Source: [Phialemoniopsis] sp. UDSM-2020 (Eukaryota; Ascomycota; Sordariomycetes; Thyridiales; Thyridiaceae). From it: DNA of 64,000 nucleotides. This document shows, in pieces, positions 7,346 to 51,900 of this stretch; the first letter of the stretch is position 1, and each line of letters begins with the position of its first letter. The stretch covers positions 4,402,001 through 4,466,000 of the forward strand of contig JAEILZ010000002.1 of assembly GCA_018873225.1 (NCBI GenBank), in the 5' to 3' direction. Position numbers and translations under genes: made by a program. The notes below the pieces were generated by a model. That model was not told the origin of the DNA and did not search any database. It saw only the letters and a program-made list of their open reading frames with translations.

Positions 7346-8648
7346 TTAGAACGAGGGCTTGGCGTTCTTGAGGAGCATCTCAAAGTAGGCCTGGTTCCAG
7401 GTACCGGCCTCGGGCGAGGGCTTGAAGGCGTCGTCCTTGCCGCAGAAGCTGTCGTACCGGGTGGCGCTGGTGTCGCTGGTGCCGTCGGACTCGCCGCCGG
7501 GCTTGCCCCAGACGAAGGCGTCGGCGAGCTCGGAGCCCGTGTCGGCCGTGGGGCGGACGCCGAAGCCGGCGCCGTCGACGTTGCACCAGTCACCCCACTC
7601 CTTGCGCAGGCCGGTGACGGCGTTGCGGCCCGTGTCGACGATGGCGTGGTTGGGCATGCCGGCCGTCTTGAGCGCCGCGCCAAACTTCTCAACGTAGACC
7701 TTCTCGTTCTGGCAGCTGTTGTACTTGGCGTCCGAGGCCGTCGAGAACTCACCGGGGGAAAGGTCCCAGGCGTTCCAGCCGGCGATGTTGGTGGCGAAGC
7801 CGCGCAACTGGCTGGGGCTGCCGGCGGCCTTGTACGCCTTGGCGAGCTCCTCCGCTCCCGGCTTGAGGTTGGCGTCCCAGCCGAGCCAGCCGCCGTGGCC
7901 CGCGTCGATGTACATGACGACGTTGGGCAGGTTGAGCTGCTTGAGGGCGTAGGCGACGCCGTCGCGGTAGCCCGCGGCCGAGTCCTTGCAGGTCTGCAGG
8001 TCGGCGTTGGTGACGAGGTTGGGCAGCGAGTCGGGCTCGATGATGAGCGCGAAGGCGGTGTTGGGGTGGGCCTTGAGCATCGTGACGATGGCTGCGCACA
8101 CAAATCATGTCAGCTACTGTGGTGATAGGGGGGGTTGTTTCACTACTTACGGTCGATGTACTGAGACTTGTACTTGCTGATCTCGCCAACCTTCAGCTCA
8201 CCGTTGGAGGCCTTGGCGGCGCAATCACGGCCGGGAAGGTCGTAGACGATGAGACCCATGATGTGGTCGCAGGGAACATCAGCAATGTTCTTCTCAGCAC
8301 GGCCAATGTTCTCAATGGTGTCCCTGAAAGTTAAGATGGTCAGCATTGTGGACGTTCAGAGGCTTCTAGCTGTTGTACTCACATCCACAGGAAGCTACCG
8401 ACGTCACCGACCTTCTTGGCGGCGGCGGCGAGGCTCGAGTCGGAGATGGCGGCGGCGGCGGCTTCGACCTCGGACCGGTAGAAGTCGTTGGCGTGGAGGG
8501 TGTACTTCTTGAAGACGTTGCTCTTGGCGTCGAGGGAGACGGCCGAGGAGCAGGCGCCGGCCTGGCGGGGCTGTTCCTTGGTGGTGGCAGAGGGCGCAGC
8601 CATGGCGCTGGCGGCGAGCGCCAGGAGGGCAGAGTGCGTGAACTTCAT
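7346..8648 (-). CDS. GH6 cellobiohydrolase/endoglucanase, no CBM1
   Basis: This is a secreted glycoside hydrolase family 6 enzyme that cleaves cellulose from the non-reducing end. Three exons (8648-8383, 8323-8151, 8091-7346) give 394 residues. A signal peptide (MKFTHSALLALAASAMAAP) precedes the catalytic domain directly: there is no CBM1 and no linker. The catalytic-acid loop VYDLPGRDCAA (Asp near 122), the second catalytic Asp in IEPDSLPNLVT (Asp near 167), the DAGHGGWLGW stretch and the C-terminal WGKPGGESDGT are all present, so the enzyme should be active. The arrangement resembles the CBM-less Cel6 subgroup. The third exon start gives a Pro at residue 147, slightly unusual but in frame. 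Antisense ORFs of up to 278 codons over this gene are GC-rich shadows. Confidence 0.92.
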
Positions 8649-25637: not shown

Positions 25638-28324
25638 ATGCACTCCATCCTGGCCTCGGCCATCGCCCTCGGCGGTCTGGCCATACTGGGTAAAGCGGCT
25701 CCAGCCCACGAGGCTGCCAACGTTCTGGCTGAGCGAGCACTGGGAATTAATTGCCGCGGCTCCGGCCTGTGCTCCAACCACCTGGGTGAAATAGCCGAAT
25801 ATATTAACGGTATTGATACATCCAAGACATACCAGAATGGTGAACACATTGCCTGCTGGAAGTACGTTTTCTTTTCGCTACCAAGTACTCCATTAGTATG
25901 ACACTGATCGAGAGACAGGAATGATCTCGGCACCGGCATTTGTGTGTTTCTTCAGGGGACCAAATCTGGAGTCGTGGGTTCCCAGGTTCAAGCCCTGCTG
26001 AAGGCGATCCAAGACCACGGCTGCAAAGGCTGCGGCAGCGTCCCCATCGACTTCACGTCTGGCAGCAACGATCCTGCCAATGGCATCCTGACGGTCAACT
26101 ACGTCGGCGACCGCGGCGGCTGTGATGGCATCTGCGACGGAGCAAAGCCGCAGCCGCCGCCTGATAATGGTGGAGGTACGGCAGATACACAAACGTTCCC
26201 CAAACAGGTGCAGGTTAACTTTCATGGCGACACCTGCAACGGGGATCCGACATGGAAAGCCACGATCCAGGAAGAGTTCAACTATGCCTACGAGATGACA
26301 CTGGCCGCCAAGAACAATCCAACAGCTGGACCATATTTCAACCACTTTTTCGACGAAGGGTCACGGAGTCAAGGCGATTTCCAACAGAAGGTCACAGATG
26401 TGTTTGACCGGATGCAAAAAGGTATGATCCAGTCCAGTATCTGCTCAGCACAAAGACGCATCATGATCTGATAGTCAATTTGCTAGCATTCACGGGAATC
26501 GACCAAGACCAGATATTCCTAGTTACGTGTGATGCCACTACCAACGGCTGCACAAAAAAGAATCAGGTCGCCCATGCCAACCCGAACGGGGGCACCTTCA
26601 ACTTCTGTCCCAGATTCTTCAAAAATGAACTGCAATCTACCAAAGATCTGCTCGGCAAGTGTGGAGAACTTGATATTCGCGCTGCACAGCGGGCCAGGGC
26701 CGCCGTCATCGTTCATGAGTCTTCGCACGTGGGAGACATCATGGGCGGGACCCCTTCGGACGACTACGCGTACGGCTTTACAGGCTGCACGCAGCTACCT
26801 GCAGGCCAGTTCGACCGCAGTTGCGCCCCTTACCACAACCCAAAGAAACCCAAGTGCCCGGATGGCCAAGGGAAAGAGGGGCTTTGCAAGCCAGACTTGA
26901 GCTTCTACAACGCCGATACCTGGGCCCACGTCGCTGCAGGCGTCTTTTTCGGCGGCAGATGCAACCGCGACATCCCGTTTCCCGACATTCCGAACCCTCC
27001 CCCTGCGTCGGAGGCACAGAAAGCGTCGGCGGCACATTGTCCCTTCGTCACTGACTATCTCATCATTGACGGAGATGACGACTTAGACAACATCCAAGGC
27101 TATGTTCATTTTGGCGACTCGTACGCTTCGGGCATGGGCACAGGTACAACCGCCGGAAACTCTTGCCGAGTCGGCAGCAATAACTGTAAGTGCACTTGCG
27201 CCTTAAGCACATTGATCCGCTTTCTTACTCTTCCAAATGTAGATGGCGATCTCCTCCGCGACTGGTTGCCGAACAAGGATTCTGTCAGCTACGAACGACG
27301 CTCGTGCTCCGGTGACACTGTCGATGGCCTGAACGGGCAGATCGATGCCTGGAGCAACTCTGACAAGGCTAATCTCGGCACGCTCACTATCGGAGGCAAC
27401 GACGTAGGCTTCAGTGATTTGGTGTACTACTGCGTCATCACGCCGAACACGGCCAGACTGGGATCGACGAACCGGGCCAACTGCCTCGACGCCGAGAAGA
27501 AGGCCAACCAGATTATGGACGATGATTCACCCGACGGCCTGCGAGCTAAGCTCAAGAACTCATTCATGAAGATCCTTGACAAGTCTGGATCAAAGGGATT
27601 TCACCTCTACGTCTCCAACTACCCGACTTTCTTCAACGAAGAGACTACGGATTGCAACGATGCGTCTTTTCATTATTGGTGGGGTGCGAACCGACCATCG
27701 AGTGACTGGCCTACAAACCGGATTGTCTATTTATCTCAGGACCTACGCAAGGAACTCAACGCCTTGGTTGCGAAGCTCAACGGTGTACTTCTCAATGCTG
27801 TGTTGGATGCAGACTACGCTCACGGGGGTAATCAGATCCATTATGTTGACGTGACTGGGCGGTTCACCGATGGCAACCATCACTGGTGCGAGGCTGATGC
27901 CAAAGATCCAGATCAAAATCGCCAGGCCACGTGGTTCTTCCTATCAGGATGGCCAGACGTGGAGTCCGACACAGCAAGCATTGAGAGCACCGAGATTAGC
28001 AACCTCATCGGGCAGGGCGAGATCAAGTTGCCAGGGAACTGTACCACCGACGGGCTATTGCAACGCAACTGGAACGAGAGTAGAGATCCCCATGATCTCG
28101 CCATGTGCAGAGTCGCCGCCGAAATTGCAGATGATCCGAATGGAGAGCAGGCGAAGCGCTTCGCGCAAGCCAACAAAGATATTGCTGCCGGCGATGTAAG
28201 CAGCCAGAGCATTCCCTGGTATCTGCTCACCAGGATGGCCAAGACCTTCCATCCTAGAACCCCTGGGATGAAGGCATACAGAGATGCGGTGATTGCGGAA
28301 ATTCAACATCAAGGTCAGATATAA
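25638..28324 (+). CDS. secreted KP4-like / aspzincin / SGNH fusion protein
   Basis: Four exons (25638-25861, 25919-26421, 26487-27185, 27243-28324) give 835 residues. After a signal peptide (about 1-20) comes a KP4 killer-toxin-like domain (about 36-147): it starts GINCRGS, has eight cysteines, and holds the family stretches GEHIACW, GCKGCGSVP and LTVNYV. A Pro/Gly linker leads to a domain with HESSH (319-323) and a downstream GTPSDDYAYG, together the aspzincin pattern of M35-like zinc peptidases. The last 390 residues are an SGNH/GDSL hydrolase: FGDSY (451-455), GGND (526-529) and a final Asp/His block DGNHHWCE (685-692). The fourth-exon junction removes 57 in-frame bases and restores the expected SNNYGDLL. 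KP4 blocks calcium channels in sensitive fungi; whether this domain does so is unknown. Each domain assignment is motif-based; the single-gene model rests on in-frame introns. Confidence 0.82.
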
Positions 28325-32970: not shown

Positions 32971-34416
32971 TCAGGCCTTTCCCGCTCCGCCATCAATCCA
33001 TTCAAATGAATCCTTACAATACCGATGGGCTCGCACATCCCCAGAACGAGCATGTCCTTCAAACTTCTCCGCCCGTGCTGCCCTGCCGCAAAGACGTCCC
33101 AGTTCGCCGCTCTCTTGGGTTGAGGTCACCTCCTGATATGTTACAGTCTTCAGGTACTTACCGACCCAAAGGCCGCCCGTGAAACGAGCAGCTCCTTTGG
33201 TCGGCAAGACGTGGTTGGTTCCGATACACTTATAGCTGAATCAGTACAAAGCCACAACTCTGTTTCGACACGAGATGGACTTACTTTGTCACCATATGAA
33301 ACACAGGTCTTGTCCCCGAGAAACAAGGCGCCATAGTTCTGCATCCTCTCCAGAGCTTCTCTGGGGTGCTTGGTCAAGATCTGTACATGCTCACTCGCGT
33401 ACTGGTCGGCAACGCTGTAAGCCTCGTCCAGGGAGTCGACGACGACGACCTCTCCAAAACGCGCCCACGATACGGACGCAATAGGGGCTGTGGGAAGGAT
33501 CTTGAGAAGACGATCGACCTCTGTCATCGTTTTCTCGGCTACAGTTGATGAATTCGTGACCAGAACAGCGGGCGTATCAGGTCCGTGTTCGGCTTGCGAT
33601 AAGAGGTCGGTAGCAACGACAAATGGGTCAGCATGCTCATCCGCGACGATCAGAATTTCAGTCGGGCCGGCGGGAAGATCAATCCCAATCTGGCCAAATA
33701 GCTGTCGCTTGGCTTCCGCGATGAATGAGTTGCCTGGGCCAGCGATGAAGTCTACCTTTCCGATAGTCTCAGTGCCAATAGCCATAGACGCAACGGCTTG
33801 CACGCCGCCGAGGATGTAGATCTCGTCGGCACCTGCCATATGTATCGCTGCAATTGTTGCACTTGGGACTTCGCCATTGATTGGCGGGGTGCAGGCGATC
33901 ACCCGAGGCACACTGGCAGCTTTGGCCGTCACGATGGTCATGTGCGCCGATGCCAGAAGAGGGTAACGACCTCCCGGAATGTATCTGTTCAGAACAAAAC
34001 TCGTCAGCTGGCTAGGTTCACAAGTCCTATTGAGGATATAGCGATACATACGCTCCGACGGTGGCGATAGGGATGTTCTTTTGGCCGAGGTGAACACCGG
34101 GACGGATCTCATACTCAAAGTCCGTGATAGACTTGCGCTGCTGTAGTGCAAAGTCTCGGACGTAGCTCTGGACGAGTTTGATATCATCAAGGGTCTGTTG
34201 AGGTACCTGTTTTATGATGTCGTCTATCTCGGCCGAAGACAGTCTGAAGCTTTTTGGGCTCCATTTGTCGAATTTGACAGAGTACTCCCGCACTGCCTTG
34301 TCGCCGTTCTGACGGATGTCATCGATGACATTGCGTACAATCGTCGGCACATCCACAGCCGATGTCCCCGCATCACCGTTGACTTGGTTGGGGGCTTTGA
34401 GCTTTCTAATGGCCAT
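32971..34416 (-). CDS. stand-alone histidinol dehydrogenase-like enzyme
   Basis: Three exons (34416-34052, 33984-33285, 33228-32971) give 440 residues. Splicing restores the family motifs: ATVGAYIPGGRYPL, FIAGPGNSFIAEAKR, PAGPTEILIVAD, SQAEHGPD (Gln and His of the zinc site), ASEHVQI (catalytic Glu-His pair) and DKCIGTNHVLPT. The enzyme family oxidises an alcohol to a carboxylate with two NAD. In fungi, histidine synthesis uses the HIS4-type trifunctional protein, so this single-domain copy is likely to act on another polyol or amino alcohol, as with the bacterial sulfopropanediol dehydrogenase relatives; that substrate is a guess. No targeting signal. It is divergent from the Zn2Cys6 gene at 34802. 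Confidence 0.88.
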
Positions 34417-48641: not shown

Positions 48642-49158
48642 AGTATATGTCCCAGAGTGAAGGCTCCGCACTCTGCATGAACAGCTTAAGAGGGACGTGA
48701 GGATCGGAGGATGCAATGTTGGAAAGGAGGAGTGTCGGCTGAGCCCCGAAGAAAGGATAACAATTGGAAAATGGCCCCATAAGTGCGGGTCTTATTGTGC
48801 GCCCTTGGCCTCATTGCGTCTAGTGGATATCGGGGCAAGCTGCCGACAGTAACTACATGAGAAGCAAGAGTCGGCATTCGAGGCGGCAACCCGGGCTCGG
48901 TGGGACTTGTACGTATTGGCAAAAGACAGTATCGGTCATCCACAATTCGATAGAACGGTGTGTCTTGAGACGAGGATGATAGAGATGAGTCGTGCATTGC
49001 CATCGCAGCTAGATAGTCCAAGAAGCAAAATCGTCATCCCTAGATCACCCATACCATCCCGATGCCATCTACACCAGTGCCGGTTTACAACATATCATAA
49101 AGCTGCAAAAGCGTCTCCTCTGAGCTGATTCTAATTTTACAGGCCTAGTAACTGAAGA
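48642..49158. promoter_or_regulatory. shared promoter, regulator / GH78
   Basis: 517 bases between divergent start codons. Several CGG triplets are present (for example around 48735, 48873 and 48884) but no clean dimeric site. The arrangement makes the rhamnosidase a plausible target. Confidence 0.45.
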
Positions 49159-51900
49159 ATGGGCCTCCGAATCGACAGGGTGCAATTCGAGCACCACCGA
49201 GAAGCGATTGGAATTGGCGAGTCCAAACCTCGTATCTCCTGGAGGTTTGCAGCCGATGATGTCGACAATTGGACCCAGAAATGCTACGAGATCGAATTTA
49301 CTCGACCGGAAAACTCATCGCCAGAGGTTTACACTGTTCAGTCCAGCGAATCGGTTTTGGTGCCTTGGCCTAGCGAGCCACTTGGATCAAGCGAGTCGGC
49401 GTCCATCCGTATACGCGCCTTCGGATGCGCACCCCATGACCAACCAACGCCATGGTCAGATCCAGCAACTGTAGAAGCTGGGCTCTTGGATCGCAGTGAC
49501 TGGACATGCTTGCTCATCTCGAGTACCAGGGCAGTCGACACTTCTTCTCCCCGGCAGCCGGTACTCTTTCGAAGATCTTTCACTCTGGACAAAGACTGCC
49601 GTAGAGCAAGACTCTATATCACGGCACATGGACTGTACGAAGCGCACATCAACGGAACCCGGGTTGGGGACCATGTCCTCGCCCCCGGATGGACGTCCTA
49701 TAAACATCGTCTTCCGTATCAAACATACGATGCAACCGATCTTATTCATGAAGGAGAGAATGTGATAGCAGCCCAGGTGGCTGAGGGATGGTTCTGTGGC
49801 CGGTTAGGCTTTCTGGGAGGCGTGCGGAACATCTGGGGTGATCAGATTGGTCTCATGGCCATGCTGATCGTTGAGGCAGCCGATGGGTCAAGGACTGTTG
49901 TCGATTCCGATTCGAGTTGGAGATCAAGCTCTGGAAGCATACTCACGTCGGAGATTTACGACGGGGAAGTCTGCGAACTTTCCTTAGAGCCCACAGGGTG
50001 GCAGGCCTCTGGATTCGACGACTCCTCCTGGGACATCGTCAAGTCCAACGACTTGCCGGGTGCCGAGCTGGTAGCTCCAGATGGACCACCCGTACGCAAA
50101 ATCGAGATATTAGAACCAGCCTCCGTTTTCACTACACCAAGCGGCAAAACTGTGGTGGATTTCGCACAAAATATTGTCGGTTGGGTACAACTTCGTCTGA
50201 AGGGTCAAAATGGCCAGACAGTCACGCTCCAGTTCACAGAAGAGCTGGAAAATGGAGAGGTGGCTACCCGACCCCTCCGAATATGCAAGGCAAGCGACAC
50301 AATAACACTTTCAGGGAAAGAAGCCATCTGGGAGCCTAAGTTCACCTTTCACGGCTTCCGGTATGTACAAGTGGACGGACTTGTGTCAGAGGCAAATGAA
50401 TTGGATCTCGACTCGATCAAGGCAGTCGTAGTCCATACAGACATGGAACCGACTGGCTCATTCGAGTGTTCTAATCCTTTACTCAATCAGCTTCACAGTG
50501 AGTATTGATGATAGTGTCGACAGCTCGTGGAATGTGAAGTCACGGGCTAACTTCAAGCAGAGAACATACGTTGGGGCATGAGAGGAAACTTTCTGAGCAT
50601 CCCCACCGACTGCCCTCAGCGTGACGAGCGTCTTGGCTGGACAGGCGACATTCATGTCTTCAGCCCGACTGCCAACTACCTCTATGACACATCTGGCATG
50701 CTGAGAGGGTGGTTGAAGGACCTTGCTGCAGAACAGATAGAAGACCACGGCAGTGTACCGCCGTTCTTCTGTCCCAACGTTTTCCTCAATGATACTCGAT
50801 ATCCTACAGCGATTTGGGGCGATGTCGTCGTTGGATTGCCATGGGCCCTCTACACCTCCTATGCCGACACCGAGATCCTCAGTCAGCAGCTACAGAGTAT
50901 GGAGAAGTGGATGAATGATGGAATACCGCGCGATTCAAACACAGGTCTCTGGGACGAGGAGTCTTATCAGTTCGGCGACTGGCTTGATCCTCTTGCACCT
51001 CCAGACGATCCCGGAAATTCTGTCACCGACCCTCAACTGGTAGCAAATGCCTATCTAGTGCATATCACATCTCTCATGAGAGACATTCACACTGCCATAG
51101 GTTCTGAAACGTCAGCCAAGCAGTACAGCAATTCGTGGGCCCGGGTCAAAGCCGCATTTCAGAAGCGCTACATCTCAGCAGAGGGACGGATGGTGGGCGA
51201 CAGCCAGACAGCTCTCGCCCTTGCCATCCACTTCCAGCTCTTCGATAGCCCAGAGCAAGAACGCACAGCTGCCAAGCGACTCAAGCACCTCATTCTACGG
51301 AACTCTAGGTTCAAAATAGCAACGGGGTTCGCGGGTACACCCATCATCGGCCATGCTCTCTCGCGCGTTGGCGAAGCTCAGCTCTTCTATAGAATGTTGT
51401 ATCACCGGAAAGCCCCGAGCTGGCTGTACCAGGTGTCTATGGGAGCAACGACCATGTGGGAGCGCTGGGACAGTAAACTTCCAGACGGCAGCATCAATCC
51501 GGGCGAGATGACCAGCTTCAACCACTATGCTCTTGGTGCGGTGGCGGACTGGATGCACCGCAACATCGCAGGCCTCTCACCGCTGGCTCCTGGCTGGCGA
51601 AAGTTTCTCGTCGCCCCGATTCCTGGCGGCGATCTCACACATGCGACTGCGCGATTCTTGAGCCCGTACGGGTTGATACACATCAAATGGAACATTGATG
51701 GCGGGCGGCTGCACTTGACGGTGAAGGTGCCTCCAAACACTGTAGCTGAAGTGAGGCTGCCGGGTGCCAACAATGAGAAGAACGACAATATTGTTGTCGG
51801 GTCAGGCAATCACGAGTTCCAGACGGAGTACGAGCTGCCGGAATGGCCGCCTTTGCCCCTCTATCCTCAGTACTATCCTCACGATGACGATGAGCCTTGA
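49159..51900 (+). CDS. GH78 alpha-L-rhamnosidase, intracellular
   Basis: Two exons (49159-50497, 50561-51900) give 892 residues. The phase-1 junction rebuilds NQLHKNIRWGMRGNFLSIPTDCPQRDERLGWTGD, the hallmark of the family; the acidic residues in this stretch and in the later WERWDS segment line the active site. N-terminal beta domains (ISWRF, then the carbohydrate-binding-like region with LYITAHGLYEAHINGTRVGD) precede the (alpha/alpha)6 barrel and a C-terminal beta-sandwich. The enzyme removes terminal L-rhamnose from plant glycosides and pectin side chains. There is no signal peptide, so it probably works on imported glycosides in the cytosol, unlike the secreted rhamnosidases. Divergent from a Zn2Cys6 gene. 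Confidence 0.93.

Follow-up and report, generated by a model that had tools for sequence, protein, structure and literature searches.

Kp4 proteins have an antifungal role, and the KP4 killer family to which they belong normally consists of small, stand-alone secreted proteins. For the Fusarium members (KP4L), lengths of 125–283 residues and either one or two Kp4 domains are described (PMC9506348). Reported effects extend beyond fungi, with KP4 and its homologs inhibiting the growth of plant roots and KP4 acting on calcium channels of mammals (PMC13211469, PMC13324453), and the way in which KP4 proteins act is still regarded as unresolved (PMC13211469, PMC9506348). Moreover, a comparison of two Trichoderma afroharzianum strains reportedly shows a Kp4-domain gene rising in one of them, namely the one that overgrows Fusarium (PMC11761082).

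The gene described here, from the fungus [Phialemoniopsis] sp. UDSM-2020, departs from this pattern, because its Kp4 domain heads a far longer protein of 835 amino acids with two further domains, an aspzincin (M35) peptidase and an SGNH hydrolase. Judging from sequence comparisons, the enzyme pair is already common in fungi, and the Kp4 front end is the unusual part and looks rare. Among the listed matches in the open-licence PMC literature no title or abstract start deals with this architecture, although an earlier mention is possible.

Gene structure and domain content

The 44.2 Mb genome, judged by its genes to be that of a filamentous ascomycete, is assembled in 11 contigs, and the window (the whole stretch of 64,000 nucleotides that was analyzed) is part of contig C4. 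An earlier note on this DNA had read the locus as one 835-residue frame over four exons that starts with a signal peptide. Both claims were borne out: the gene has three GT-AG introns of 57, 65, and 57 nt with a GC content of 42–44% (Table 1), all sequence elements listed in that note are present, and the most hydrophobic 15-mer of the whole protein (residues 4–18) lies where a signal peptide would show it, so that secretion is predicted. Pfam places the Kp4, aspzincin M35, and SGNH/GDSL domains in this order behind the signal peptide, as the note had supposed, and all score above the family cut-offs. Five Pfam families were listed up to E 1, and one of them, MU117, scores 17.2 bits and stays far below its cut-off of 30.4. 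NCBIfam has no family for the window frame or for two of the related proteins discussed below (P0002 and P0086).

Table 1. Features of the gene, with positions counted from the first letter of the window
Feature	Position	Strand	Residues	Basis or conservation
Whole gene	25638..28324	+	835 aa plus stop	4 exons
Exons	25638-25861, 25919-26421, 26487-27185, 27243-28324	+		splicing
Introns 1 / 2 / 3	25862-25918 / 26422-26486 / 27186-27242	+		GT-AG
Predicted signal peptide and short pro-segment	25638..25721	+	1-28	hydrophobicity; 1kpt alignment
Kp4 domain, split by intron 1	25722..26105	+	29-137	Pfam PF09044; 1kpt
Linker (...CDGICDGAKPQPPPDNGGG...), inside exon 2, without Met	26106..26186	+		splicing
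Aspzincin M35 region, split by intron 2	26187..27049	+	about 165-430	
HExxH zinc site	26714..26728	+	H319, E320, H323	29/29 aligned rows
DxxY	26762..26773	+	D335, Y338	29/29 aligned rows
SGNH/GDSL hydrolase, split by intron 3	27098..28321	+	about 447-835	PF00657; 4hyq
Nucleophile in FGDSY	27119..27121	+	S454	29/29 rows
Block III GGND	27392..27403	+	526-529	N528, D529 in 29/29 rows
Likely block V catalytic histidine in FHPR	28250..28252	+	H812	28/28 rows with a residue there

Membership of the first domain in the KP4 killer protein family, likewise claimed before, was confirmed by the Pfam profile (PF09044, residues 29–137, 112.4 bits against a cut-off of 27.8, E 2e-32) and by a sequence search of PDB chains, in which the solved KP4 toxin (1kpt) matches residues 35–138 with E 2e-6, residue 35 being located opposite the first residue of its chain. 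In this alignment K42 of viral KP4, which we take to be its essential lysine, faces C73, and the lysine K75 follows two places on, beside a gap. Since the position of the essential lysine is not matched, the window protein may have lost the direct toxicity of the KP4 type.

The peptidase domain scores 43.8 bits in Pfam (Aspzincin_M35, residues 205–346, cut-off 30, E 4.6e-11), and its conservation was judged from an alignment of the window protein with 28 homologs (29 rows). The earlier note had recognized the enzyme by HExxH plus GTPSDDYAYG. HExxH, D335, and Y338 are invariant in this alignment, D335, by analogy with the family, presumably being the third zinc ligand. The "GT" that precedes the aspartate varies among the homologs, T331 being kept in only 3 of the 29 rows, and this part of the proposed signature was dropped. 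The window protein thus has the marks of an aspzincin, i.e., HExxH, the aspartate, the tyrosine, and a profile score above the cut-off, and a deuterolysin fold is supported as well, the folds of both enzyme parts being backed on a homolog with 55% identity.

For the C-terminal domain, Lipase_GDSL (PF00657, residues 448–694) reaches 28.1 bits against a cut-off of 23.6, and Lipase_GDSL_2 (PF13472) with 32.0 bits stays slightly below its cut-off of 32.9. The Streptomyces phospholipase A1 4hyq was matched in the sequence search of PDB chains (E 3e-10) and also by fold, via the SGNH part of the homolog. We thus predict a phospholipase A1-like SGNH domain, a likeness of fold that does not imply the substrate. 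Of the motifs named previously (FGDSY, GGND, and DGNHHWCE), the first two are conserved, but the catalytic histidine most likely is H812 in FHPR rather than a residue of DGNHHWCE. At the latter site D685 is an aspartate in only three rows, with H688 kept in 27 of 28, and HPxxxG is the usual form of SGNH block V. GDS, GxND, and HP blocks are all present, and the predicted active-site residues of both the M35 and the SGNH domain are complete and conserved over 28–29 aligned rows.

The M35–SGNH family and its N-terminal heads

A homology search yielded a set of 85 homologs from 7995 scored candidates. The view that M35-like peptidases and SGNH hydrolases are normally separate enzymes does not hold in this family, and a new fusion of the two was rejected as an explanation: 64 of the 85 proteins contain both domains, in all 64 the M35 domain comes first (at least 200 of its residues are found in 47, fewer in the rest), and the remaining 21 have SGNH without a detected M35. 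In their source records these fungal tandem proteins appear as "mutanase," "SGNH hydrolase," or "hypothetical protein."

What varies is the N-terminal part. According to precomputed Pfam domains, GH71 occurs in 23 homologs, FG-GAP or TcdB_midN repeats in eight, and FN3 and a fungal lectin domain in one each. Kp4 was found in none of the 85, either in these precomputed domains or by phmmer with the window Kp4, and none of five large Kp4 proteins found combines Kp4, M35, and SGNH, in agreement with the earlier statement that no protein with this order was known. P0002 of Arthrobotrys entomopaga, the closest full-length homolog, and P0003 of Trichoderma simmonsii (55 and 50% identity, respectively) share the tandem and the catalytic residues with the window protein but differ in their heads, which are a cysteine-rich stretch without a Pfam family in P0002 and GH71 in P0003. 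Other tandems begin almost directly with the peptidase, the M35 domain starting at residue 22 in P0004 and at residue 24 in P0008. In P0042, P0056, and P0064, FG-GAP repeats in the middle of the protein are accompanied by a further SGNH-type domain close to the N-terminal end (Pfam was run on P0042 and P0064); M35 was detected in the first two of these proteins but not in the third.

A quick SGNH tree was calculated from 67 sequences, i.e., 63 of the 85 homologs (22 were left out by choice), the window protein, and three Kp4–SGNH proteins. On it the heads GH71, FG-GAP, and Kp4 require five changes over 31 rows compared with a minimum of two, and therefore the head has probably been exchanged more than once. 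Adding four headless rows raises the count to eight changes over 35 rows; "no head" was kept out of the main count because some headless homologs may be truncated gene calls.

The three Kp4–SGNH proteins, which lack M35, are P0086 from Glutinoglossum americanum and P0088 and P0089 from metagenomes, the latter two being partial since both start inside the Kp4 domain. Their Kp4 heads share 58–64% identity with that of the window protein over the aligned part (53% for P0086 by the search's own count), and the linker is similar (GICDASRPQPPP against GICDGAKPQPPP), but the SGNH domain of P0086 is only 29% identical over 215 columns. The structural model of P0086 matches the same phospholipase A1 fold as the SGNH part of the homolog mentioned above. 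Only this match was used, because confidence in the model is low overall (mean pLDDT 59.0) and also in the Kp4 region, where 7 of the 12 blocks of ten residues between 31 and 150 fall under 50. In the SGNH tree the three proteins form a branch with a length of 3.4, as if the two Kp4–SGNH layouts might have arisen separately; a single clade of all four Kp4 rows was not rejected by the AU test (p 0.39), and a Kp4 tree of 12 rows contained no supported branch. The window Kp4 has 58–66% identity to the chimeric Kp4 domains, 54% to that of P0090, and 49–57% to the Kp4 pieces of its own genome, a weak sign of closeness to the chimeras because only proteins over about 300 residues were searched. In the Geoglossum umbratile assembly, one 868-residue gene model (P0087) joins Kp4 to RHS repeats.

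The genome itself encodes the M35–SGNH tandem once, with one remote SGNH match on contig C11 (33% over part of the domain), and has seven other Kp4 loci, of which six form three divergent pairs and the seventh stands alone. The pairs are located head to head at C1:749071-751089, C8:445434-447468, and C4:5954483-5956335, with 1095, 1099, and 1088 bases between the facing matches, as if they shared two-way promoters or had been copied pairwise.

Some homologs bear the name of Penicillium Pc12g07500, but data on that protein were not carried over, because, compared with other mutanases, it is described as much shorter and as lacking their C-terminal mutan-binding part (PMC4077275). Similarly, the Trichoderma qPCR results presented under this name (PMC10055783) could not be attributed to the long protein. 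A search for prokaryotic origins retrieved no relative of the 638-residue window frame from genome contigs, and none was found for the 187-residue window frame in viral contigs, both scans reaching close relatives only; matches from a viral fold library were to SGNH-like and tail proteins, with E 2e-4 and worse.

A proposed fungus-directed toxin and its alternatives

We tentatively propose, with a probability of roughly 45%, that the product of this gene is a modular lytic toxin secreted against fungi, in which a Kp4 head is placed on a protease–esterase module. Once outside, the protein would be guided by its Kp4 domain to the surface of a sensitive fungus, which this domain may also inhibit directly in the manner of KP4 toxins. 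The zinc peptidase would cut proteins of the surface or wall, after which the SGNH domain, resembling phospholipase A1, would hydrolyze the membrane lipids or wall esters thus exposed. The head would be exchangeable, as an alpha-1,3-glucanase or FG-GAP repeats stand in the place of Kp4 in relatives, and the protein would serve to antagonize other fungi or to feed on them. GH71 enzymes are alpha-1,3-glucanases, and alpha-1,3-glucan is a polymer of the fungal wall. A fungal target is suggested because the GH71 partner recurs and Kp4 is antifungal, and these recurrent partners point to fungus–fungus conflict; the recurrence of Kp4 heads on SGNH hydrolases in P0086, P0088, and P0089 was also counted for this reading, as was the rise of the Kp4-domain gene in the Trichoderma strain that overgrows Fusarium (PMC11761082). 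A fungal target is not assured, because KP4 homologs also inhibit plant roots and KP4 acts on mammalian calcium channels (PMC13211469, PMC13324453); the unmatched lysine and the failure to recognize a self-protection gene nearby were likewise counted against the proposal. According to a related published idea, an added domain steers a fungal chitinase between antagonism and host colonization (PMC13039781). A natural fusion of Kp4 to two hydrolases provides a handle on whether Kp4 is a binder or a poison, and the M35–SGNH tandem with its changing heads is a widespread secreted module of fungi, of which the papers listed in our search gave no description.

Headless tandems such as P0004 and P0008, as well as P0002 from Arthrobotrys, would fit general digestion or other prey too. 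Also weighed as possible, though unlikely, is an enzyme that serves the producing fungus in its wall or in nutrition, in which Kp4 and GH71 are mere anchors and the hydrolases remodel the fungus's own wall or scavenge proteins and lipids. The occurrence of the module without a recognized head and its single copy in the genome agree with such a function, as does the likeness of the KP4-like domain of the chimerolectin CCTX2 to ligand binders such as a fungal lectin (PMC13324453), but the recurrence of a killer-toxin head on SGNH hydrolases would be left unexplained.

A further reading, which we consider distinctly unlikely, takes Kp4 as a mobile head of fungal modular toxins with differing cargoes, the M35 peptidase releasing the esterase at the target. 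It derives from the variety of these cargoes, namely M35–SGNH here, a remote SGNH domain in Glutinoglossum and the metagenomes, and RHS repeats in the Geoglossum model. Kp4 would then end where several single Kp4 frames stop and continue via the proline-rich linker; four of the seven other Kp4 reading frames of the genome indeed end directly after the last cysteine, where the window protein runs on into DGAKPQPPP, and the lone Kp4 gene stops elsewhere.

Improbable, in our view, is an AB-like toxin directed against animals or plants (nematodes, insects, or roots), whose head would bind host cells on which the enzymes act. Its closest full-length homolog comes from Arthrobotrys, a nematode-trapping genus, and eight relatives carry FG-GAP/TcdB_midN-type repeats, but this homolog lacks Kp4 and the most frequent partner is GH71, for which we know of no substrate in animals or plants. 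The nematotoxin CCTX2, which combines lectin domains with a KP4-like fold (PMC13324453), speaks for such a toxin.

Quite improbable as well is a built-in processing protease, where M35 would cut the protein after secretion and leave the SGNH hydrolase as the sole effector, although this would also be compatible with the other readings. The invariable position of M35 before SGNH would suit it, and self-processing has been described for metallopeptidases inside some bacterial toxins (PMC3482391). Also in its favor, a scan for KR and RR found no such site separating the domains, because the only two, at residues 494 and 780, fall within SGNH. Against it, neither a cleavage site nor a processed form of the protein is known, GH71 enzymes and Kp4 proteins function without release of this kind, and 21 of the 85 relatives have SGNH without a detected M35.

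Finally, two adjacent genes or an assembly join misread as one are very unlikely, and the two-gene reading was rejected, even though the full architecture was not met a second time among the 85 homologs or the five large Kp4 proteins, because the Kp4–M35 joint lies inside exon 2, whose frame is open for 503 nt (the other two contain six and three stops), no in-frame Met between residues 1 and 201 offers a separate start for the enzyme part, and GC3 is uniform over the three parts (0.66, 0.64, and 0.64).

Comparison with known toxin systems

Pfam assigned an amidase, a 2EXR protein, a histidinol dehydrogenase (33150-34211, minus strand), and three proteins with transcription-factor domains among ten reading frames of the window, the other four having no family; none was recognized as immunity-like, and no self-protection gene was recognized beside the gene. 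By eye, two further frames resemble a GH6 cellobiohydrolase (7346-8104, minus strand) and a GH78-type rhamnosidase (49156-51900, plus strand).

The earlier note had seen a layout recalling bacterial polymorphic toxins, which combine a constant N-terminal delivery part with a variable C-terminal toxin. The likeness is only partial, as the family of the window protein is built in reverse, with a constant hydrolase end and a variable N-terminal part. This order sets the window protein apart from polymorphic toxins as bacteria have them; an immunity gene was not recognized among the ten frames. If Kp4 were a mobile head as outlined above, the system would be a fungal counterpart of such toxins in which the part that is exchanged comes first. 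Killer-toxin-like chitinases and zymocin-type toxins, with their GH18, LysM, and Hce2 domains, likewise unite a wall-active enzyme and a killer part in one secreted system. The window protein shares this principle but employs Kp4, M35, and SGNH instead, and neither GH18, LysM, and Hce2 nor beta-trefoil lectin domains are among its five Pfam families up to E 1. Among described multidomain toxins of fungi, the closest that we found to contain a KP4-like fold is CCTX2 of Coprinopsis, in which, according to the account consulted, this fold is C-terminal and was recognized by structure, and four beta-trefoil domains, rather than a protease or an esterase, make up its company (PMC13324453).
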